From a virus: a DNA stretch of 34,084 bases. Under the pieces are notes generated by a model, which made no database searches, had not been told where the DNA came from, and worked only from the letters and a program-made list of their open reading frames with translations. The stretch covers positions 1 through 34,084 of IMG/VR virus record IMGVR_UViG_3300020207_001276; one strand, 5' to 3'. Both the position numbers and the translations under genes were made by a program. Of this stretch, positions 3,608 through 33,470 are shown in pieces (within the stretch, counting starts at the first letter, position 1; every line of letters starts with the position of its first letter).

Positions 3608-4469
3608 AGAAGGCGGATCAATGCCTGGCGTAGGGCCAATTCATATTGATGAAATTGAACCTACACTTGATGCACTTGAAAAAGTATTAGGAATAGATCT
3701 AAAAGACAATGTTCTTGGTAGTGTTGGTAAGAAAGAGTTCTCGGGCGACATTGATGTTGCTATTCAGCTTGCTCCAGAAGAAATTCCAGAATTTATAGAA
3801 AAATTAAAAAAGGTTCCAGAGATTATGGACCTTGCTAAAAGTTCAATTATTATGACCAAAGTTAAAATTGTAAACTTTGATCAAAGCAAACAAACATTAA
3901 AACCGCGCACAGGATATGTACAAGTAGACTTTATGCCAGGCGATCCAGGTTGGATGAAAACTTATTACCATTCACCGGGCGAAAAAGAATCAAAGTATAA
4001 AGGTGTGTTTCGTAATGTTATGATTGCAACTATATGTGCAGTCTATCAAAGAAAAGATTCAGAAGAAACTATTGACGATGGACGTCCTGTAGAAAGTGAA
4101 CGTTGGATGTGGTCACCGGCAGACGGCCTTGTTCGTATTAAACGTACACCTGTACCTAAAGCAAAAGGCGACGGATACACAAAGAAAAACAAAAATGAAA
4201 TTCTTGGTCAGCCTATCAAGACTGCTCCAGAAATTGCAAAGACATTAGGGTTAGACGGACCACAAGACTTAAACTCTTATGAAAGTTTAAAAGCCGCAAT
4301 TGAAAAAAATTATCCAAAAGAAATAGTAGATAAAATTTTAGACAGTTTTGTTAAAAATGGACAAGTACAAGATATTGGAGTTCCAGACGATATTAAAGAT
4401 AGAACTGAACTTGCCGCAGAAAGTCTTGCAGACAAACATCTACGTAGACTAAAGGAGTTACTACCGTGA
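3597..4469 (+). CDS. Pol-beta-type nucleotidyltransferase-like protein
   Basis: The protein is 290 aa. The segment LGSVGKKEFSGDIDVAI (residues 40-56) has the GS...DxD signature of the minimal nucleotidyltransferase fold. A third acid lies in a hydrophobic strand, YVQVDF (Asp111), as the fold requires. The rest includes WMWSPADGLVRIKRTP and a helical C-terminus. These enzymes transfer a nucleotide to RNA, protein or a small molecule; the substrate here cannot be read. It overlaps its upstream neighbour by 11 bases and its downstream neighbour by 4 (GTGA). That places it in one translational unit with a KxDG protein, so a two-gene nucleic-acid or protein modification module is possible. Confidence 0.65.
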   Translation: MILKEGGSMPGVGPIHIDEIEPTLDALEKVLGIDLKDNVLGSVGKKEFSGDIDVAIQLAPEEIPEFIEKLKKVPEIMDLAKSSIIMTKVKIVNFDQSKQTLKPRTGYVQVDFMPGDPGWMKTYYHSPGEKESKYKGVFRNVMIATICAVYQRKDSEETIDDGRPVESERWMWSPADGLVRIKRTPVPKAKGDGYTKKNKNEILGQPIKTAPEIAKTLGLDGPQDLNSYESLKAAIEKNYPKEIVDKILDSFVKNGQVQDIGVPDDIKDRTELAAESLADKHLRRLKELLP

Positions 4470-5746
4470 AGTTTAGTGACTTTAGAATAGTTGAAAAAAA
4501 GATTAAACAAAAAGATGCTGATCAAGTTCGTGGCAGTGAACCAATGCCTAATAAAAATAAACCAAGCAAAGGGCCTGAACAAAAACATCCTATGCGTGGC
4601 AGACTTGTAGGAGCAAACGAAAGTATTATATTATCTGAAGGCGCTCGAATTGATCATGCAGAAGATCTTGTATACCTTGAAGGCAGTAAAGGCGCTATGA
4701 GAGTATTACAAGCACTTCGTAACTTAGAAGGAGAATCACATAAAGATGTCACAGTCAAATGGGATGGATCTCCCGCAATCATTTTTGGCCGCAATGAAAA
4801 TGGAGAGTTTATACTTACAGACAAAAGCGGCTTTACAGCAAAAGGATACGACGGTAAAGCAACGTCAGCAGACAACCTCCAAGCAATGCTAATGAATCGT
4901 CCTGGTGCAAAGAATCCAGATCCAGCAAAAGCACAGGACTATAAACAATTTGCCGCAAATATGAAAGATATATTTGATGAGTACGAAAAGGCAGTACCAA
5001 AAGATTATAGGGGTTTCTTCAAAGGAGACTTACTGTATTTTAACAAACCTGATATAGAAAATGGAAACTACGTGTTCAAGCCTAACATAGTTAAGTATGC
5101 GGTATCTACTAAATCAGACTTAGGCAAAAAGATAGGCGCAAGTAAAACAGGCGTAGTAATTCATAGACAAGTTGACCCAGATGGTGCTGAAAGACCGTTA
5201 GAAACTACAGATATATTTCAAGGCAATGAAGTATTAGTTGTTCCGCCAATTAGCGTAGAGCGTCCGCCAGATGTACCTAATGATCAACTTAATCAATTAG
5301 AAGCACTAATTAAACGTAATGCTTCTGGATTAGACGAACTATTAAATATTCAAGAACTTACAAATATGCAAATGAAAGACTTTCCTAAAATTCTTTATGC
5401 ATATACTAACTCTAAAGTTGATACAGGTTTAGATAACCTTGGCGTAGATTTTGCACAATGGTTAGAGCAAAGAAAACAAATAAGCGATCGTAAGAAAAAT
5501 AAAATTCTTGAATACATCAAAAAACATGCACAGGCATTTGCAACAATGTGGCAAACAGTAAATGCTATTATGAAAGTTAAAGATGATATTATTTCACAGT
5601 TTGATATGCATGATCAAACTGTTAAGCAATCAATTCCAGGACACGGTGAAGGCGGCGAAGGATATGTATTAGCACATCCTGAAGGTGACATTAAACTGGT
5701 TCCAAGAGAATATTTTACAAAAGCCAATAGAGCTGTGGAGAGATAA
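4466..5746 (+). CDS. DUF6267-like phage protein with ligase-type KxDG motif
   Basis: The protein is 426 aa, with a GTG start overlapping the previous stop and AGGAG upstream. The N-terminus MKFSDFRIVEKK resembles a capsid-targeting leader. After a Pro/Lys-rich linker comes HAEDLVYLEG, then VKWDGSPAIIFG (Lys98-x-Asp100-Gly101). Further on are GFFKGDLLYF (Gly187-Asp188), NYVFKPNIVKYAV and TGVVIHR. KxDG, then a hydrophobic strand with GD, recalls motifs I and III of covalent nucleotidyltransferases (DNA/RNA ligases). I recall the same block in a marine T4-phage family annotated DUF6267. The order of the later motifs differs from classical ligases, so activity is unproven. A C-terminal helical region (LNQLEALIK to HAQAFATMW) follows. 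Confidence 0.65.
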   Translation: MKFSDFRIVEKKIKQKDADQVRGSEPMPNKNKPSKGPEQKHPMRGRLVGANESIILSEGARIDHAEDLVYLEGSKGAMRVLQALRNLEGESHKDVTVKWDGSPAIIFGRNENGEFILTDKSGFTAKGYDGKATSADNLQAMLMNRPGAKNPDPAKAQDYKQFAANMKDIFDEYEKAVPKDYRGFFKGDLLYFNKPDIENGNYVFKPNIVKYAVSTKSDLGKKIGASKTGVVIHRQVDPDGAERPLETTDIFQGNEVLVVPPISVERPPDVPNDQLNQLEALIKRNASGLDELLNIQELTNMQMKDFPKILYAYTNSKVDTGLDNLGVDFAQWLEQRKQISDRKKNKILEYIKKHAQAFATMWQTVNAIMKVKDDIISQFDMHDQTVKQSIPGHGEGGEGYVLAHPEGDIKLVPREYFTKANRAVER

Positions 5747-7749: not shown

Positions 7750-8040
7750 ATGTTAGTACGTGAGTTTTTTATTGACCAAATAGATGAGAAACAAATTTGG
7801 GCACGTTCTGGAAAGAATGTAGTGCGCAAGTTTAGATGCCAAGGCGGCCCCAGAAAAGGTCGTATTGTTGCAAAAATGTCTCAATGTTTTGCCGCACCAA
7901 ATATTAAGGCAAAAATCACTATGAAACGAACTAAGGCAAGATTGGGAGGCAAAATGGCTCGAAAGGCCCGTAGAACAAAACGTAATAACCCAGCAAGTCG
8001 TAGAGTACAAGCATTAAACAAGGCAGGACGTAGAAGATAA
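7750..8040 (+). CDS. Highly basic protein, tandem paralogue copy 1, 96 aa
   Basis: Arg/Lys-rich throughout, ending NKAGRRR. It shares with the next gene the pattern W-x-R...VVRK-x-RC-x-x-GPRKG, then C-x-AP, and near the end PASRR...LNK. Both are exactly 96 aa and adjacent, so they arose by tandem duplication. Two conserved cysteines (in FRCQGG and SQCFAAP) could bind metal. A nucleic-acid-binding protein packed with or condensing DNA is the simplest reading. Its stop overlaps the start of copy 2 (TAATG). Confidence 0.72.
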   Translation: MLVREFFIDQIDEKQIWARSGKNVVRKFRCQGGPRKGRIVAKMSQCFAAPNIKAKITMKRTKARLGGKMARKARRTKRNNPASRRVQALNKAGRRR

Positions 8041-8330
8041 TGCAAGTAGTTGAGATTGTTGAAGCACCAACAATAGGTTGGAAAAGACAAGGAAACAACA
8101 AAGTTGTTCGTAAATATCGTTGTACTACTGGACCAAGAAAAGGTCAAGTAAGATCAAGCCCTGCGGCCTGTAACGCTCCAATTAAATTAAAAAATAGAGT
8201 AACACTAAAAATAAATAAAGCAAAGCATGGTTCACATGGTAAAGTTATGCGTCAAAGAACGAAGTCGCATTCGCCTGCTTCAAAGAGACTAAGGACTCTA
8301 AATAAACCTCGTAAAAGGAATGTAAGATGA
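8040..8330 (+). CDS. Highly basic protein, tandem paralogue copy 2, 96 aa
   Basis: Aligns along its whole length with the preceding gene: GNNKVVRKYRCTTGPRKGQ, ACNAP and SHSPASKRLRTLNKP. The N-terminus has diverged (MQVVEIVEAPTIGWKRQ). Cysteine positions are conserved. It overlaps the upstream stop by one base and the downstream start by four. The product should be strongly positively charged and to bind DNA or RNA; its place among virion genes suggests a packaged internal protein. No named family is known to me. Confidence 0.72.
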   Translation: MQVVEIVEAPTIGWKRQGNNKVVRKYRCTTGPRKGQVRSSPAACNAPIKLKNRVTLKINKAKHGSHGKVMRQRTKSHSPASKRLRTLNKPRKRNVR

Positions 8331-8599
8331 AAATAACAGATTTATTAAATGAAGCAGAACCACAAGCACCAACAGCTCCAGGACAGGAAGCACCTACAAT
8401 GGGAGCGCAACCTGATCCTCAACAGAATACACCCCAACAACCTGCTGGTGATCCTGCAAAGGCACAAGCAAACATGCAAAAGAATAATCAACAGAGACGT
8501 GCAATGCTTCAGTCACAAATTAAAAGTGCTGAAGAGCAAGTAAAAGCTCAACAAGAGCAAATTACAGCAATGAAAAAACAATTGGCTGCTATTAAATGA
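8327..8599 (+). CDS. Gln/Pro-rich coiled-coil protein with leader-like N-terminus, 90 aa
   Basis: Starts MKITDLLNEAEP, similar in design to a T4 capsid-targeting leader with an LNE cleavage-type motif. A Pro/Gln/Ala-rich linker follows (about residues 13-45), then a coiled coil from about 55 to 90 (SAEEQVKAQQEQITAMKKQ). It overlaps both neighbours by four bases. A small prohead-core or internal head protein would fit composition and context; this is inference. Confidence 0.62.
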   Translation: MKITDLLNEAEPQAPTAPGQEAPTMGAQPDPQQNTPQQPAGDPAKAQANMQKNNQQRRAMLQSQIKSAEEQVKAQQEQITAMKKQLAAIK

Positions 8600-9248: not shown

Positions 9249-10253
9249 ATGAATATTAGAGAGATTAATAGACCAGTTACAGCAGAGGCGCTGAACGAGA
9301 GCCTCGCAAAGAAGTTTGGTGAAAGAATTGCTTTAGAAAAATTTACACTTGATCAGCTTGAAGATGCACGTAATAAAATACGCACTTCAATGAGTCAAGT
9401 TGAAGCTACTGAAAGTTTTGAGCGAGTTCAAAGTGAAACATATCAAAAATCTAAACTCTTCCTTGATGTGTTAAATGCAGAAATTGCAGAGCGTGAAGAC
9501 ATTGCTGAAAAGAAAGCAAAGCCAGACTTCCTTGATGTAGATAAAGATGGCGATAAAAAAGAGCCAATGAAGAAAGCTCTTAAAGATAAAAATCAAACTG
9601 ACGAAGCGAAGAAAGCTGGCGCACCTGGACCAAAACCATACAAGTTAGGTACCGATAAAGGTTGTAAGCCAGGGTTTGTATTAGATAGCAAAACCAAAAT
9701 GTGTATGCCAAAGGCTCCAAAAGGAATGAGTCAAGACCAATTTAACAAAGAATCTATTGTACGTGAAGGTGCAGAAGACCAAGCAGAGATTGTAATGGCA
9801 GCAAAGGACATGGTTAACCGTGTTACTGGTTGGATGGAAGACACAGCTGAAATGCAAACTGAATCAATGCTTGAACTTGCAGATGCTATTCGCGATGAGC
9901 AAGGTCAAGAAATGAGTGATAACTTTGTTAACACTGTTAAGCCTGCACTTGAAAGTTTATATACAGCATTAGAAAGCACACGCGAATCATTAACTTCAGG
10001 CGTTGGACAACTAACAGGCGAAGCGGCACCAGTAGATGACATGGGCGCAGAGCCAGATGTAATGGACGAACCTGAAATGGAACCAACAGTTGATGGCGAA
10101 GAAGATTTATCTTCAGGATTAGATGCGTCTGAACCAGCCGCTGGCGGCGAAGAAGAAGCAGGTCGTGAAATGCGTGAATCACAAAAGTATGCCAAAAGAC
10201 GCTTCTTAGAAAGTAGCAGAAAATTAGGTACCATTCTTTCAAAAAAAAAGTAA
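9249..10253 (+). CDS. Prohead core/scaffold-like structural protein, 334 aa
   Basis: A charged, mostly helical protein. The N-terminal part (residues 1-95) is long-helix-like (LAKKFGERIALEKFTLDQLED...). It is followed by an EF-hand-like loop (DVDKDGDKKE), a Gly/Pro/Lys linker with two Cys, a second helical domain, and an acidic Pro/Glu/Asp tail. A basic end follows (SQKYAKRRFLESSRKL). I recall this layout in marine T4-like virion or core proteins. High charge and acid-rich low-complexity regions fit a scaffold or core component. The gene ends in an A9-G run directly before TAA, a slippery site that would lead into the next frame. Confidence 0.65.
   Translation: MNIREINRPVTAEALNESLAKKFGERIALEKFTLDQLEDARNKIRTSMSQVEATESFERVQSETYQKSKLFLDVLNAEIAEREDIAEKKAKPDFLDVDKDGDKKEPMKKALKDKNQTDEAKKAGAPGPKPYKLGTDKGCKPGFVLDSKTKMCMPKAPKGMSQDQFNKESIVREGAEDQAEIVMAAKDMVNRVTGWMEDTAEMQTESMLELADAIRDEQGQEMSDNFVNTVKPALESLYTALESTRESLTSGVGQLTGEAAPVDDMGAEPDVMDEPEMEPTVDGEEDLSSGLDASEPAAGGEEEAGREMRESQKYAKRRFLESSRKLGTILSKKK
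10241..10253 (+). other. Candidate -1 ribosomal frameshift site
   Basis: The last codons read TCA AAA AAA AAG TAA. A_AAA_AAG in frame is the most slip-prone -1 heptamer known in bacteria (as in dnaX), and a stop codon follows it at once. After a -1 slip the ribosome reads without a stop through 10250-10294 into the frame of the next gene. An AGGT about 15 bases upstream could be a weak stimulator; downstream only a short stem is seen. A homopolymer sequencing error is the alternative. Confidence 0.5.
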
Positions 10254-10294
10254 TAGCGGAAGTTGACGCTTCTCTTGCCAACGAAAAACTAATC

Positions 10295-10639
10295 ATGGCA
10301 TTAAGAACTGTTCAGCAAGCCGCTGATCAAAAAGGCAAGCCTGTCTTTCTACACTTTGAAAAACCAACTAAAGAAGGCATAAAAGCCGATACTATTAATT
10401 TAGATCTAAATAAAATAATGCAAAACATGGGCGGCGAGTCATTTGTATATGGCACGTTTAAAAATGCTTTTGATTCAGATCCTCGTGTAAAAGAAATGGT
10501 CAAAGACTTTTCTGAAGAAGGAATCAATCTTAAAACAAAACAAGATGCAGATGTTGGTGCACCTACAAGCCCTGAAGATGGCAGTGACAAAGTAGGACAA
10601 ATGGCATCGAGAGCAACTGACGTTGGTGCTCCTTTATAA
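10295..10639 (+). CDS. Hypothetical protein, possibly expressed as frameshift extension of the upstream protein
   Basis: From ATG 10295 the product is 114 aa (MALRTVQQAADQKGKP...). This ATG has no ribosome site, and the same frame stays open upstream to 10247 with protein-like sequence (IAEVDASLANEKLI). That suggests the true N-terminus lies further up or that it is reached by frameshift. The only possible alternative start there is ATA at 10253. The C-terminal 35 residues contain two similar VGAP motifs (DVGAPTSP and DVGAPL). The family is unknown; position suggests a head protein. Confidence 0.6.
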   Translation: MALRTVQQAADQKGKPVFLHFEKPTKEGIKADTINLDLNKIMQNMGGESFVYGTFKNAFDSDPRVKEMVKDFSEEGINLKTKQDADVGAPTSPEDGSDKVGQMASRATDVGAPL

Positions 10640-25818: not shown

Positions 25819-27432
25819 ATGATTTATAAAGAAGTTGAATTTGGTGAGAAAAGTCGTGCAAAACTACTTGAAGGCATTGATGTTTTATCAAATGCAGTTA
25901 AAACTACTTTAGGTCCAAAAGGACGAAATGTAATTATCCATCGACCAGAAAACGAACCACATGTTACCAAAGATGGTGTAACTGTAGCAGGCGAAATTAT
26001 TTTAAAAGATGAACTTGAAAACATGGGCGCACAAATGGTTTTGGTTGCCGCTGAAAGAACTGCAAAACAAGCAGGTGATGGAACTACAACTGCAACAGTT
26101 TTAACACAGAGTATTGTTAAAGAAGGAATGAAGTTAGTATCAGCTGGCATGAATCCTATGGATCTAAAAAGAGGAATTGATAAAGCAGTTGCAGAAATTG
26201 TTAAACACCTTGCAGAAATATCTATACCTTGTAAAACACCTGAAGAAGTTAGAAAGGTAGCAACACTTTCTGCAAACTCAGATGCAAAAATTGGAAATAA
26301 AATTGCAGAAGCAATCGAAGCTGTAGGAAAAACAGGTGCCATTTCAATTGAATCTGGTAAATCTTTAGAAGATGAGTTAGTAAAAACAGACGGCTTGCAA
26401 ATTGACAGAGGTTACATAAGCGCATATTTTTCTACAAATTTTGAAGCAATGACAACTGTACTTGAAGATTGTTATATTATTTTATATGACAGAACAATTA
26501 AAAGTACACACGTTCTTGTGCCTTTATTAGATAAGATAGCACCAACAGGAAAATCAGTTTTGATTGTAGCTGAAGATGTTGAAGGCGAAGCACTACAAAC
26601 TTTGTTAATGAATCATCAAAGCGGACATCTAAATGTATGTTGTATTCCAGCACCTGGCTTTGCTGATAGACGTTTACCTATTATGGAAGATATTGCTACA
26701 TTAACCGGCGGAAGAGTCTTTTCAAAAGAACTTAATAAAAATTTACAAGACGGACAAATTAGTGACTTAGGACACTGCGAAAGAATTGAAGTTACTAATC
26801 TTACAACAACTTTTATTAATGGTAGTGGAGACAGAGCCAAAATTTTATCTCGTATTCAACAAATTAAGACACAGTTAGAAACTGCATCTAACGAATACAA
26901 TGCAGATAAACTAAGAGATAGATTAGCAAAATTAGATGGCGGAGTTGCTGTTATCAAAGTTGGCGGCGCAACTGAAGTTGAAATTGGCGAAAAGAAAGAC
27001 CGATATGACGATTCATTAAATGCTACAAGAGCCGCAATTGATGATGGTATTATACCAGGAGGCGGCGTAGGATTGCTAAGAGCAAAACAAAAACTAAGCA
27101 ACATTGAAACAGCTAATTTAGATCAAAAAGCAGGTGTTGATATTGTACTTAAAGCTATCGAATCGCCTGCCAGACAGATTGTTGACAATGCAGGAGGCAA
27201 GCCTGATGTTGTTATCAATGCAATTCTTCAAAGTGAAGGCAATCATGGATATGATGCTGCCACTGGAGAATTTGGTGATATGATGGATTTAGGCATCATT
27301 GATCCTACTAAAGTCACAAAAACTGCATTAATTAACGCGGCCAGTGTTGCTGGTTTGTTAATTACTTCAGAATGTTCTATTATTGCTAAAGGCGTACAGG
27401 AACAGAAAAATGAAGAATATATACCATTGTAG
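25819..27432 (+). CDS. groEL: Chaperonin GroEL, phage type
   Basis: 537 aa. ATPase motifs DGTTTATV and TTLGPKGRNV are intact, and the Asp in DDSLNAT and PGGGVGL match the equatorial domain. Apical and intermediate domains are complete but diverged. The C-terminus ends EEYIPL without the usual Gly-Gly-Met tail. GGAGG precedes the ATG. No groES or gp31-like partner is seen in the window, so it uses a host or distant phage co-chaperonin, or works alone. It probably folds capsid or other phage proteins. Confidence 0.96.
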   Translation: MIYKEVEFGEKSRAKLLEGIDVLSNAVKTTLGPKGRNVIIHRPENEPHVTKDGVTVAGEIILKDELENMGAQMVLVAAERTAKQAGDGTTTATVLTQSIVKEGMKLVSAGMNPMDLKRGIDKAVAEIVKHLAEISIPCKTPEEVRKVATLSANSDAKIGNKIAEAIEAVGKTGAISIESGKSLEDELVKTDGLQIDRGYISAYFSTNFEAMTTVLEDCYIILYDRTIKSTHVLVPLLDKIAPTGKSVLIVAEDVEGEALQTLLMNHQSGHLNVCCIPAPGFADRRLPIMEDIATLTGGRVFSKELNKNLQDGQISDLGHCERIEVTNLTTTFINGSGDRAKILSRIQQIKTQLETASNEYNADKLRDRLAKLDGGVAVIKVGGATEVEIGEKKDRYDDSLNATRAAIDDGIIPGGGVGLLRAKQKLSNIETANLDQKAGVDIVLKAIESPARQIVDNAGGKPDVVINAILQSEGNHGYDAATGEFGDMMDLGIIDPTKVTKTALINAASVAGLLITSECSIIAKGVQEQKNEEYIPL

Positions 27433-29631: not shown

Positions 29632-30699
29632 ATGCGTTTTAGTGATTTTAAAATTGTAGAAGAAGCAGAGCCAATTCCGGACCGTATTTCTTACATCATA
29701 GACCAAATGAAGGCAAACCCTGAAATTTTAAAGAGGGTTTATAGACTTGTGAAATCTGAAATGGATTTAGCAGATAAGAAAGATCCGGAGAATATGCTGA
29801 AGCCTGAACTTACTAAACCTGAAAGGGACTATAACTACAAGGGCGTATTAGAAGCATTTATACAAGCACTAAACAACACTCCAGGTGATTATGACGATAT
29901 GGCAGCATTTTTAAGTACATACGGAAAAACCAATTACATAGATACTAAAGAACTTATGGCAGATGGTTATTCAGGATGGACTGCTTGGTTAAAAGGTTCG
30001 GGCAAAGTAAGTCAAGACTTTATACACAAATTGTATGCAAATTTGTTTCCTGTAAAATTAAACATTAACGGATCTAACAGAGGCCCAGGCGAAGTAGGTC
30101 TTGCACTATTAAGTCCGCAGATTGAATTTGCTACAATTGGTGACTTATCAATTAACGGTGTTGAAGTAGAAGTTAAAGGTGAAGTATCGTCAGGTGGTGG
30201 TAGACTTAAAAACTCTAATGCAGATTACGGACAGCCAAATTTAGAAAGTGTATACGATGAATTTGAAATTCCAGAAGACCAACGACCCAAGAGATTACCA
30301 ACAGGTAATTCAGGATCAAAAGATCCTCGCTACTTTCAAGATCTTGCAATGCGTTTAGACAAAATTAGTCCAGGCGCAGGAAAAGCGTACATTACTGAAT
30401 TGTTTCAAGGAACATATATTAATGGCGACGAAAAACTTATTAATAAAATGATTGCAAACTATGACAAGTTAGATCGCACAGAAGTTGGTTTACTTGCTAT
30501 GAAAATTTCTTACAGTAGTTACGCAAACATTTTAAAGAAAAAAGGATTTAGTAAATTCTTGTTCTTAAAACTTGAAGGCGAAAAATCATTAGCATTTGAC
30601 GTTGACGACTACGAAGGATTTTTTGAGTTCTTCAAACTTGGTTCATTAGATTGGGCAGATGGTCAAAACGGTCCAGCAGTGCAGGCATCAATGGTATGA
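29632..30699 (+). CDS. Capsid-leader protein with nuclease-like motif, 355 aa
   Basis: The leader MRFSDFKIVEEAEP is almost the same as that of the 4466 gene. Body: GPGEVGLALLSPQIEF, GDLSINGVEVEVKGEV (Asp...Glu-x-Lys) and SSGGGRLKN resemble a PD-(D/E)XK core. A long helical region (YFQDLAMRL) and a C-terminal FLFLKLEGEKSLAFDVDDYEG follow. I do not recognise a named family; a nuclease packaged in the head is inference. It overlaps the next gene by ATGA at 30696-30699. Confidence 0.62.
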   Translation: MRFSDFKIVEEAEPIPDRISYIIDQMKANPEILKRVYRLVKSEMDLADKKDPENMLKPELTKPERDYNYKGVLEAFIQALNNTPGDYDDMAAFLSTYGKTNYIDTKELMADGYSGWTAWLKGSGKVSQDFIHKLYANLFPVKLNINGSNRGPGEVGLALLSPQIEFATIGDLSINGVEVEVKGEVSSGGGRLKNSNADYGQPNLESVYDEFEIPEDQRPKRLPTGNSGSKDPRYFQDLAMRLDKISPGAGKAYITELFQGTYINGDEKLINKMIANYDKLDRTEVGLLAMKISYSSYANILKKKGFSKFLFLKLEGEKSLAFDVDDYEGFFEFFKLGSLDWADGQNGPAVQASMV

Positions 30700-32078
30700 G
30701 ATATAGTGAGTTTAAATTAGTAGAATCAAAAGGAATGTTTGGCCGCAATGAAGGCGATACATTTACACACCATGACGGTCGTGAATATTCTATTGTACAA
30801 GTTGTAGCATTTCCAGATGCACAGACACAACGATTTGAATCGCCAGAACAACGCGATGAAGAAATTAAAAAGTTTGAAGCAGAACATAATTCACAAATTG
30901 AATGGGTTAATAGACCAAATACAGGAATGCTTGCATTTGGTATTGCACAGTTAGATGACCAAGATGGTAATCATGTATTTTGGGGTAGATATCTAAAATC
31001 AACATCATTTGATATGATGGGTGCTTGGCAAAACAAACAAGTTCCTGCAGGTTGGGCACTACAAACTAAAGGCGCACAAAAGTTTGCCGCAGGTTATGAT
31101 CCACAAGCATTAATTAAAACAGAAAATAGATTCCAAGGCATCGACAGTATTGTTAATACTGTTGTTAAAAATGCAGACGATCAAGTTAAAGACGTATTTA
31201 AAGAAGCACTACAGAATTTAGCACAAGGTAGTGGACAAGTTGTATTTCCAGAGATGTATGAGCAACAAGCAGCCATTCGTGATTACTTTGGCGAGATTAT
31301 GCAACCAGTTGCATTAATGGGCGGAGTAATTGGTGGACAAGCAGAAGATGCTCGTCGTGAATTAGCAGACGGTGCTGAATGGCGTGACTGTCAAGTTATG
31401 TGGCCAATGAGTATGAATGCCGCATTATGTGATTCGTTTATGATTGCTCCTAATGGTGCTGAAATTGGCATTAGTTCAAAAGGTGGACAAGGTGCTGCCG
31501 CAAGTGCAAAAAATCTAAATGATGCTGTTATTAAAGCACGTAAAGATGGTAAAGATATTGTAGAGCCAGGCGGCGTATCAGAATTTGCCGCACAACTTGT
31601 AGATATTATCGCAAGCAATACAGCAATAGAAGGCCCGATTGCTGTTGGTAAGTTCTTAAAGATTCCAGGTATTGACGATAACTTACAACAAGAAATCAAC
31701 GAATACATTCAATCTGGTAAATCAGATTTAGACGGATTATCCCCTCAAGCACAAAAGATTGCAGAGCCGTTTGCATTTAAATTAGAAACAAAAGGCTTTA
31801 ACACAGGCTATGCACTATTAAGTGCCGCAAGTAAAACTTGTGCAAAAGTTGTTAATGCAGAAGAAGTGTTTTCAAAAGGTGCTATTGCATTATTGAATCA
31901 GTCAGATATTATTCAATTATATACACACATGGGTAAAGACAAAAATGATGCTGTACTAAAAGAGTTTAAAGCAGTATATCCTCCAAGTTTCACTGGCAAG
32001 GTATGGCTCGAAGGCGGCAAGAACTACTATAGTTCACGTGTTGGCGGCAAGATGGCATTTGCTATCGGCAAGAAATAA
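30696..32078 (+). CDS. Capsid-leader protein with KGG motif, 461 aa
   Basis: Start ATG 30696 (MRYSEFKLVESKGM), chosen for its overlap with the stop of the previous gene and its leader; an in-frame upstream ATG at 30651 lies inside that gene. Body: FWGRYLKSTSFDMMGAW, CDSFMIAPNGAEIGISSKGGQGAAAS (acid, strand, Lys-Gly-Gly, as in some restriction-type nucleases) and a C-terminal GGKNYYSSRVGGKMAF. Coupled to the preceding leader-bearing protein, it may work with it after injection. Family unknown; function inferred only from motifs. Confidence 0.62.
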   Translation: MRYSEFKLVESKGMFGRNEGDTFTHHDGREYSIVQVVAFPDAQTQRFESPEQRDEEIKKFEAEHNSQIEWVNRPNTGMLAFGIAQLDDQDGNHVFWGRYLKSTSFDMMGAWQNKQVPAGWALQTKGAQKFAAGYDPQALIKTENRFQGIDSIVNTVVKNADDQVKDVFKEALQNLAQGSGQVVFPEMYEQQAAIRDYFGEIMQPVALMGGVIGGQAEDARRELADGAEWRDCQVMWPMSMNAALCDSFMIAPNGAEIGISSKGGQGAAASAKNLNDAVIKARKDGKDIVEPGGVSEFAAQLVDIIASNTAIEGPIAVGKFLKIPGIDDNLQQEINEYIQSGKSDLDGLSPQAQKIAEPFAFKLETKGFNTGYALLSAASKTCAKVVNAEEVFSKGAIALLNQSDIIQLYTHMGKDKNDAVLKEFKAVYPPSFTGKVWLEGGKNYYSSRVGGKMAFAIGKK

Positions 32079-32124: not shown

Positions 32125-32142
32125 TAAGTGGAGGGTAGTCTT

Positions 32143-32595
32143 ATGAGGACAATAATAGCAACTTTAGTATTATTTTATGCAACAAGTGCAGTTGCGAGCG
32201 AGATGGTCTGGGGATTTAAAAATCCACGTTTTAGCGGACAAGGATATAGTTCGCATGTACTATCTACAGAGCAATTACAACACAATCGCAAAGAAGATAT
32301 TAAAGCAAAAGCAGAAGCTGAACAAAGACGTATCGAGCGTGAACTTGAAAACACAACCCTAAACAAATTCTTAAAGAACGTAGAATCACGTATCTACGCA
32401 CAAATTTCAAAGCAGATGGTAGACGCTATGTTTGCTGATTGTTCAGACTCTTGTGCTAATACAGGCACAGCAGAAATTGAAGGCTCAACTATTGTTTGGG
32501 TCAAAGCAGACGGTATGATCACTTTAACAGTTACACAAGATGATGGAACAGTTACTGAGATTAGCATACCGGCAGATGGAGATTTTAGTTTTTAA
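32143..32595 (+). CDS. csgF: Curli assembly protein CsgF
   Basis: 150 aa from ATG 32143; the upstream in-frame GTG at 32128 lies on the ribosome site, so it is rejected. Signal peptide MRTIIATLVLFYATSAVA. The mature N-terminus SEMVWGFKNPRFSGQGYSSHVL corresponds to the CsgF segment (FxNPxFGG) that plugs the CsgG pore. The middle is helical, and the end WVKADGMITLTVTQDDGTVTE matches the beta-rich CsgF tail. Secreted to the outer membrane to help nucleate curli. It overlaps csgG by one base. Confidence 0.9.
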   Translation: MRTIIATLVLFYATSAVASEMVWGFKNPRFSGQGYSSHVLSTEQLQHNRKEDIKAKAEAEQRRIERELENTTLNKFLKNVESRIYAQISKQMVDAMFADCSDSCANTGTAEIEGSTIVWVKADGMITLTVTQDDGTVTEISIPADGDFSF

Positions 32596-33470
32596 TGTTG
32601 CGTATGGGATCAGTACTACTAATTATTGCTTTTCTGACTGGATGTACAGCTATGAATAGTAGCTTACAAACACTCAAAGAGGCAGAGATCTCGCCTACGG
32701 TACAAGCATCGCCTATACAACAAAGATTAGAAGATGTTCCAGAATTAGATGGAGAAACAATTACAATCGCTGTTTATAGTTTTACAGATAAAACAGGACA
32801 GCGTAAACCCAGTGACATGGTTGCTAATCTAAGCAGTGCAGTCACACAAGGCTCAGAAGCCTGGGTTATCAAAGCCTTACAAGAGGTGGGCAACGGCAAA
32901 TGGTTTGAAGTTGTTGAACGTGTAGGTATGGACAATCTTATCAAAGAGCGTCAACTTATAAGACAGACACGTGAAAACTACGAAGGAGATAATGCTCCTA
33001 AACTAAAACCATTGTTGTTTGCAGGGCTCATTCTCGAAGGCGGCATTGTTGGATATGATAGCAATGTAGCAGTCGGAGGAGCAGGAGCCAGTTGGCTTGG
33101 CATTGGTGCAAGCACAGAATATAGAATCGACAACGTAACAGTGGTAATGCGTATCGTATCAGTTAGCACAGGGAAAGTGTTACTGAGTATAGCAACGGAG
33201 AAAACCATTGCAAGCCACAGGTCCGGAGCGGACGTTTTTAAGTTCCTTGATATGGGAACTCAACTGTTAGAAACTGAAACTGGTTTCTCAGTTAATGAGC
33301 CTGTCAACTATGCTGTGAGGGCGGCCGTTGAACAGGGAATCGTAGAATTAGTCTACGAAGGTCAACGAAAGGGACTTTGGAAGTTCCAGGAGGGTAAACA
33401 AAATGAAATTAAGAACGTTGATATTATTGTTGACGGCAACACTATTTCTAACTCCAGCTCTGGCGAATGA
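32595..33470 (+). CDS. csgG: Curli secretion channel CsgG
   Basis: 291 aa. Lipobox FLTGC (Cys17). Domain motifs: ITIAVYSFTDKTGQRKPSD, KWFEVVERVGMDNLIKERQLIR, LEGGIVGYDSNVAVGGAGASWLGIGAS and TEYRIDNVTVVMRIVSVSTGKVL all follow E. coli CsgG. CsgG is a nine-subunit outer-membrane channel that exports curlin. Full length. csgF comes before it and a curlin-like gene starts inside its end. Pelagimyophages are known to carry csgG and csgF; the role in infection is open. Confidence 0.94.
   Translation: MLRMGSVLLIIAFLTGCTAMNSSLQTLKEAEISPTVQASPIQQRLEDVPELDGETITIAVYSFTDKTGQRKPSDMVANLSSAVTQGSEAWVIKALQEVGNGKWFEVVERVGMDNLIKERQLIRQTRENYEGDNAPKLKPLLFAGLILEGGIVGYDSNVAVGGAGASWLGIGASTEYRIDNVTVVMRIVSVSTGKVLLSIATEKTIASHRSGADVFKFLDMGTQLLETETGFSVNEPVNYAVRAAVEQGIVELVYEGQRKGLWKFQEGKQNEIKNVDIIVDGNTISNSSSGE

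Follow-up and report, generated by a model that had tools for sequence, protein, structure and literature searches.

The window is the entire 34,084-nt stretch of viral DNA that was analyzed (IMG/VR virus record IMGVR_UViG_3300020207_001276, positions 1 to 34,084), and all features of the junction lie on its plus strand. The upstream ORF (9249–10253; 334 aa, 37.0 kDa) encodes a head or virion structural protein and sets the zero frame, which ends TCA AAA AAA AAG TAA TAG. This end contains a run of nine A (10241–10249), the slippery heptamer A_AAA_AAG in the zero frame (10244–10250), and the stop codon TAA (10251–10253) followed by TAG in the same frame (both stops, 10251–10256). The original prediction, of an in-frame A_AAA_AAG at the end of the 334-aa ORF with TAA directly after it, was confirmed at 10244–10253. 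From 10250 the −1 frame continues without a stop to 10636 (129 codons) and ends with TAA at 10637–10639, giving an extension of 129 aa (10250–10639). As predicted, it is open for 45 bases before its first ATG (10295–10297). No Shine-Dalgarno-like sequence was present in the 15 bases 5′ of this ATG (aacgaaaaactaatc), in agreement with the earlier reading that the second ORF has no ribosome site there. The ATG is an unlikely start and probably encodes an internal Met; the relative L005, which has a separate start, carries Q at the aligned residue. Just past the slip are a weak 4-bp hairpin (AGCG gaagttga CGCT, 10255–10270), which is a possible 3′ stimulator, and, in the −1 frame, the residues I-A-E (10253–10261), a candidate prohead-protease site. 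The computed frameshift product is 463 aa (51.0 kDa), compared with 334 aa (37.0 kDa) without the shift. Its predicted junction residues are KKK-VIAE, and VIAEVDASLANEK is an example of a predicted peptide spanning the fusion junction.

The upstream protein matched phrog_14154 (head and packaging, virion structural protein; E 2.2e-14), which fits its original designation as a core protein. Its N-terminus, MNIREINRPVTAEALNE (9249–9299), is a conserved leader (MNIREI...LNE), and the upstream proteins of the relatives share the leader MNIREISKPVTAKSLNE|S. The leader is short, N-terminal, and ends in (I/L)xE (here L-x-E), as T4-type head leaders do. By analogy, it looks like a T4 capsid targeting sequence, and cleavage would be expected at its end. 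P-TIM68 and Sinorhizobium phage Phosso were rejected as homologues, having matched only stretches of the upstream protein, and H3 (marine virus AG-345-D19) was rejected as an isolated-phage homologue, its match to another ORF being due to chance. One chance match aside, the junction gene pair had no match in the phage collection.

Five relatives were obtained in the first search, and profile searches then enlarged the set to 278 loci that encode the downstream domain. The −1 frame thus encodes a conserved protein family, in keeping with the earlier reading that it encodes plausible protein. L001 is identical to the window over the junction stretch. Three relatives from the first search, 75–84% identical in the domain, retain the A run and the open −1 frame, and L005, the most distant of that search (56%), has no A run and a separate start, TAAGGATTAGACATG. 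When 2.9 million viral contigs were scanned for the junction pattern, 30 matches were found, and 30/30 were the same gene pair in the same frame relation. The junction occurs far more often than chance would give.

For 277 loci the junction could be classified. The frameshift class was defined by the presence of the heptamer, so its presence in 100% of the class is by construction. In 216 loci (82 groups <90% identical), an in-phase A_AAA_AA(G/A/C) lies 0–2 codons ahead of the upstream stop, and the −1 frame is open and continues into the domain; each of the other 61 loci (26 distinct) had an ATG of its own, and none of the 277 lacked both start and heptamer. The heptamer was A_AAA_AAG in 69 of the 82 groups, A_AAA_AAA in 10, and A_AAA_AAC in 3. 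The run was A9 in 67 groups, A10 in 10, A8 in 2, and A6 in 3. The base triplet after the run was GTA, ATA, CTA, or GTC in most groups, and the first ATG, a median of 38 codons from the slip in frameshift members, falls inside the conserved domain. The junction Lys-Lys was encoded by AAA AAA in 45/45 non-redundant groups, compared with 84/240 Lys-Lys pairs elsewhere in the upstream ORFs. Away from the junction, seven A or T runs of nine were counted in 343 kb. One locus (L047) has a second A9 run (CAA AAA AAA AAG, 2940–2960) in the same ORF, about 17 codons upstream of its A8 junction. Comparison of the junctions in relatives strongly supports the programmed −1 frameshift that had been proposed as possible: recoding of some kind in the −1 direction very probably joins the two ORFs.

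Hairpins were sought as stems of ≥5 bp starting 3–9 nt after the run. They were found in 16/45 groups, compared with 6% at 280 control offsets, none of which reached 16/45, and with 3.7 ± 1.8 groups expected under synonymous recoding. Across the 82 groups the fraction was 0.27–0.30, compared with 0.07 at the controls (maximum 0.25). In both sets related groups are counted as independent, which overstates the significance. The hairpin sequences differ between groups, over half of the groups have none, and the hairpin of the window itself is weak (4 bp). The minimum-energy profile alone was suggestive at most, because there is another structured region some 60 nt further downstream. The separate-start class failed as a no-hairpin control, 6/15 having one (one close group plus L065). 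In the separate-start clade with MRVSD leaders (L067, L055, L050, L065), a 7–9 bp hairpin, e.g., ATCAGACAT gaga GTGTCTGAT, encloses the start ATG, and it may control initiation or coupling.

At the separate starts, a Shine-Dalgarno-like site, mostly TAAGGA, was detected with a generous pattern in 25 of the 26 distinct cases. Where the run stood, these loci carry, e.g., ACA AAG AAG, AAG AAG AAG, or AGC AGA AAC. Relatives with a separate start for the second gene, which had been named as a check on the prediction, therefore do exist, but they are distinct lineages without the in-phase heptamer; the exception is the L065 lineage, in which an A6 heptamer occurs together with a separate start. An unrooted tree was built from 61 representatives using 117 downstream-domain columns and 270 upstream-protein columns, with the junction excluded. 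On this tree, supported branches force at least three origins of separate starts, the start classes are clustered (0/500 shuffles were as low), and the near relatives of the window are all of the frameshift type. Frameshift and independent start are best read, from these sequence comparisons, as having swapped during the evolution of this gene pair.

GTG directly follows the A run in 9/45 groups, and re-initiation might be possible at this codon. In L062, L064, L079, L089, L103, L109, and L111, the GTG that comes right behind the A9 run shares bases with the upstream TGA stop, and a 5-bp downstream hairpin is missing from all seven loci. The GTG-after-run arrangement is possibly an intermediate between separate start and frameshift. 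The post-slip residues align with GTG-type starts (VRIAEVDAG in L089, VIAEVDAS in the window), and a plausible path is that a GTG start overlapping the upstream TGA (L062, L089, L103, and others; ...AAAAAAAAAGTGAGAATA...) later decayed to GTA, ATA, CTA, or GTC.

Comparison of the relatives thus gives a conserved in-phase slippery site, a downstream frame without a start, and alternation with separate starts. Ribosomal −1 slippage, rather than slippage of RNA polymerase, is the likely main route of recoding. Most ribosomes would stop at TAA 10251 and yield the 334-aa head protein, and a fraction would move back by one base at A_AAA_AAG within the A run, perhaps also one codon before it at A_AAA_AAA, and make the 463-aa fusion carrying the start-less downstream domain. 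The same fusion would result from normal translation if RNA polymerase slipped and some mRNAs carried an extra A in the A9 or A10 run. Nine As are the usual threshold for such slippage, which is used in IS elements and Thermus dnaX (PMC1088944), and A9 or A10 occurs in 77/82 groups, covering bases beyond those required for the heptamer (TCA and the first AAA). Nine As are also the length at which selection against transcriptional slippage acts in many bacterial genomes (PMC1088944). Shorter runs, however, also keep the arrangement. In L134 (TCA AAA AAG TCG TAA) and L135 (GGA AAA AAG TCG TAA) the run is A6 after the loss of one codon, and exactly A_AAA_AAG is kept in phase, with no start codon and with differing preceding bases; in L047 and L170 the run is A8 since TCT replaces TCA, again with A_AAA_AAG in phase and no start of their own. 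Ribosomal slippage is favored because the A6 of L134 and L135 is too short for ordinary polymerase slippage and because hairpins are enriched downstream of the run, where a polymerase on the run would be unaffected. Polymerase slippage is consequently an unlikely explanation of the junction as a whole, and it is possible as a helper in the A9 and A10 members.

Translation of the downstream ORF as a separate product, by re-initiation at or near the stop or from an internal ATG, fits the GTG overlapping the TGA stop in one region of the tree (L062, L089, L103, L109), and the separate-start relatives show that the domain can stand as a gene of its own. Re-initiation, however, needs neither the A run nor its phase, most groups have GTA, ATA, CTA, or GTC after the run and their first ATG a median of 38 codons further on, and ATG 10295 has no Shine-Dalgarno sequence; this explanation is therefore highly improbable. 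Still less credit, close to none, can be given to a homopolymer error in sequencing or assembly that splits a single ORF, even though the homopolymer lies exactly at the break. The same frame relation recurs in 82 groups, whose sequences come from many independent assemblies; the length of the run varies by substitution or by whole codons only, and the frame is never restored. The run lengths A8 and A10, which had been proposed as signs of error in the reads, occur in relatives together with A6 and A9, always with the same frame relation, and the run length at the junction is not an error. The 82 groups of relatives rule out chance or sequencing error as the cause of the junction.

A_AAA_AAG is the frameshift heptamer of dnaX and IS911. 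The present junction has this heptamer in common with the E. coli dnaX and IS-element sites, and many of the relatives also have a downstream hairpin. It differs from these sites in that the heptamer lies inside A9 or A10 and the stop follows almost immediately, and from dnaX in that the shift product is longer, not shorter. The nine-A run is also like that of A9 transcriptional slippage in Thermus dnaX and IS elements (PMC1088944), but here the A6 and A8 relatives keep the arrangement, the heptamer phase is kept, and hairpins lie downstream. Among phages, T7, T3, A2, and Listeria phages are known to extend capsid proteins by −1 frameshifting (PMC5009743). As in T7 gene 10A/10B, T3 gene 10, and Lactobacillus phage A2, the shift is placed near the 3′ end of a virion gene, and the product would be a minor one with a C-terminal extension (PMC5009743). 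In those phages the major capsid protein is extended, whereas here it is a minor or internal-type head protein of T4-like phages. The extension here also belongs to an apparently unrelated family, with no relative found in PHROG, Pfam, or PDB; in some lineages its place is taken by a gene with a separate start, and it has [ILV]xE just after the slip. The lambda gpG/gpGT frameshift likewise joins two phage ORFs in the −1 direction (PMC5009743); it produces a tail assembly chaperone, neither product is in the virion, and no sequence relation to the window pair was found.

In the literature searched, which covers few subscription journals, no report of this frameshift was found in connection with marine T4-like phages, with pelagiphages, or with prohead targeting. 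Based on the sequences, the best reading is that this −1 frameshift family in a head protein is new and represents the same kind of event as the known capsid extensions. It adds a deeply conserved recoding site, unreported in the searched literature, in widespread uncultured marine T4-like phages. The family is also a natural experiment, with at least three switches between frameshift and separate start that arose independently, A6, A8, A9, and A10 variants, and hairpins present or absent, so that the birth and loss of slippery sites and the question of ribosome versus polymerase can be tested on natural variants. Gene callers split this protein, and the fusion has likely been missed in annotation.

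An [ILV]xE motif was present within seven residues after the slip in 81/82 groups, the lone exception being the L065 lineage, which has its own leader. In the set of 45 groups the motif was present in 45/45, compared with 1% of windows in the rest of the domain. The overlapping stop codon dictates in part the V/I/L and the residue after it, but for the most part not the E. The separate-start downstream proteins carry their own leaders with a similar end (MRVSDIILE|AE, MKVFELYE|EE). In T4, gp21 cleaves after (I/L)xE, e.g., ITE and LTE in Alt (PMC5694885). The (I/L)xE-ending upstream leader and the [ILV]xE found both at the junction and in the separate-start leaders are like T4 capsid targeting sequences and the gp21 sites in Alt (PMC5694885), except that one of the candidate sites here is inside a frameshift fusion.

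Given this resemblance to T4 prohead-protease sites, the fusion may bring the downstream domain into the head, where it would be cut. It would ride into the prohead on the targeting sequence of the upstream protein, and the prohead protease would cut it after the [ILV]xE that lies a little beyond the slip, so that the downstream domain is released inside the head. This carry-and-cut step is put forward tentatively, by analogy with T4. Slightly more speculative is the broader suggestion that the frameshift is a packaging device, in which a cargo protein sits on the C-terminus of a head-targeted protein in place of having a targeting leader of its own, the protease cuts it loose just past the slip, and the frameshift rate sets its dose in the head. 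If so, lineages would switch between fusion cargo and a separately started, leader-bearing cargo gene. The 335-kb contig of a frameshift relative (L119) encodes a T4-type portal, an S77 prohead protease, and Gp23, and around the junction its gene order is that of the window; a T4-like genome of jumbo size is thus among the relatives of the window. Neither the window record nor the other viral contigs tested, which are fragments, gave a match to the S77 protease or Gp23, and T4 markers were likewise not found on these other contigs. The L119 contig (PBPT01000016.1, 335,231 bases) and that of L118 (PALK01000009.1) were binned into Neomarinimicrobiota and Rickettsiales MAGs and look like phage. 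Another contig from the bin of L119 (C77) carries the same head genes.

The downstream domain had no sequence relative in PHROG, Pfam, or PDB. Its AlphaFold model, based on 59 sequences, had a mean pLDDT of 69 (about 80 in residues 11–90), and no significant match to the model was found by Foldseek. The VIA-align rows for the model were mostly winged-helix domains, and their Z of about 5 is too weak for an assignment. Judging from the model, the domain may have a winged-helix-like fold.

Other genes in the window were also recorded. Two tandem, very basic 96-aa proteins (MLVREFFIDQIDE... and MQVVEIVEAP...; 7750–8330) adjoin the head-protein genes. Both are rich in RRTKR/PASRR-like stretches, similar ones occur in L129 (1353–2094), and they may be internal DNA-binding head proteins. 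The leaders of the ORFs at 4466–5746, 8327–8599, 29632–30699, and 30690–32078 end in xxE (MKFSDFRIVE, MKITDLLNE, MRFSDFKIVE, and MRYSEFKLVE), and one of these ORFs contains DUF6267. The shared xxE leaders suggest a larger set of head-targeted proteins in the window. A NifU-like Fe-S scaffold gene (phrog_8429) is located at 1131–1508. By eye, a GroEL-like gene was recognized at 25819–27432 and CsgG/CsgF-like genes at 32128–33470, the latter assigned to PHROGs of unknown function.
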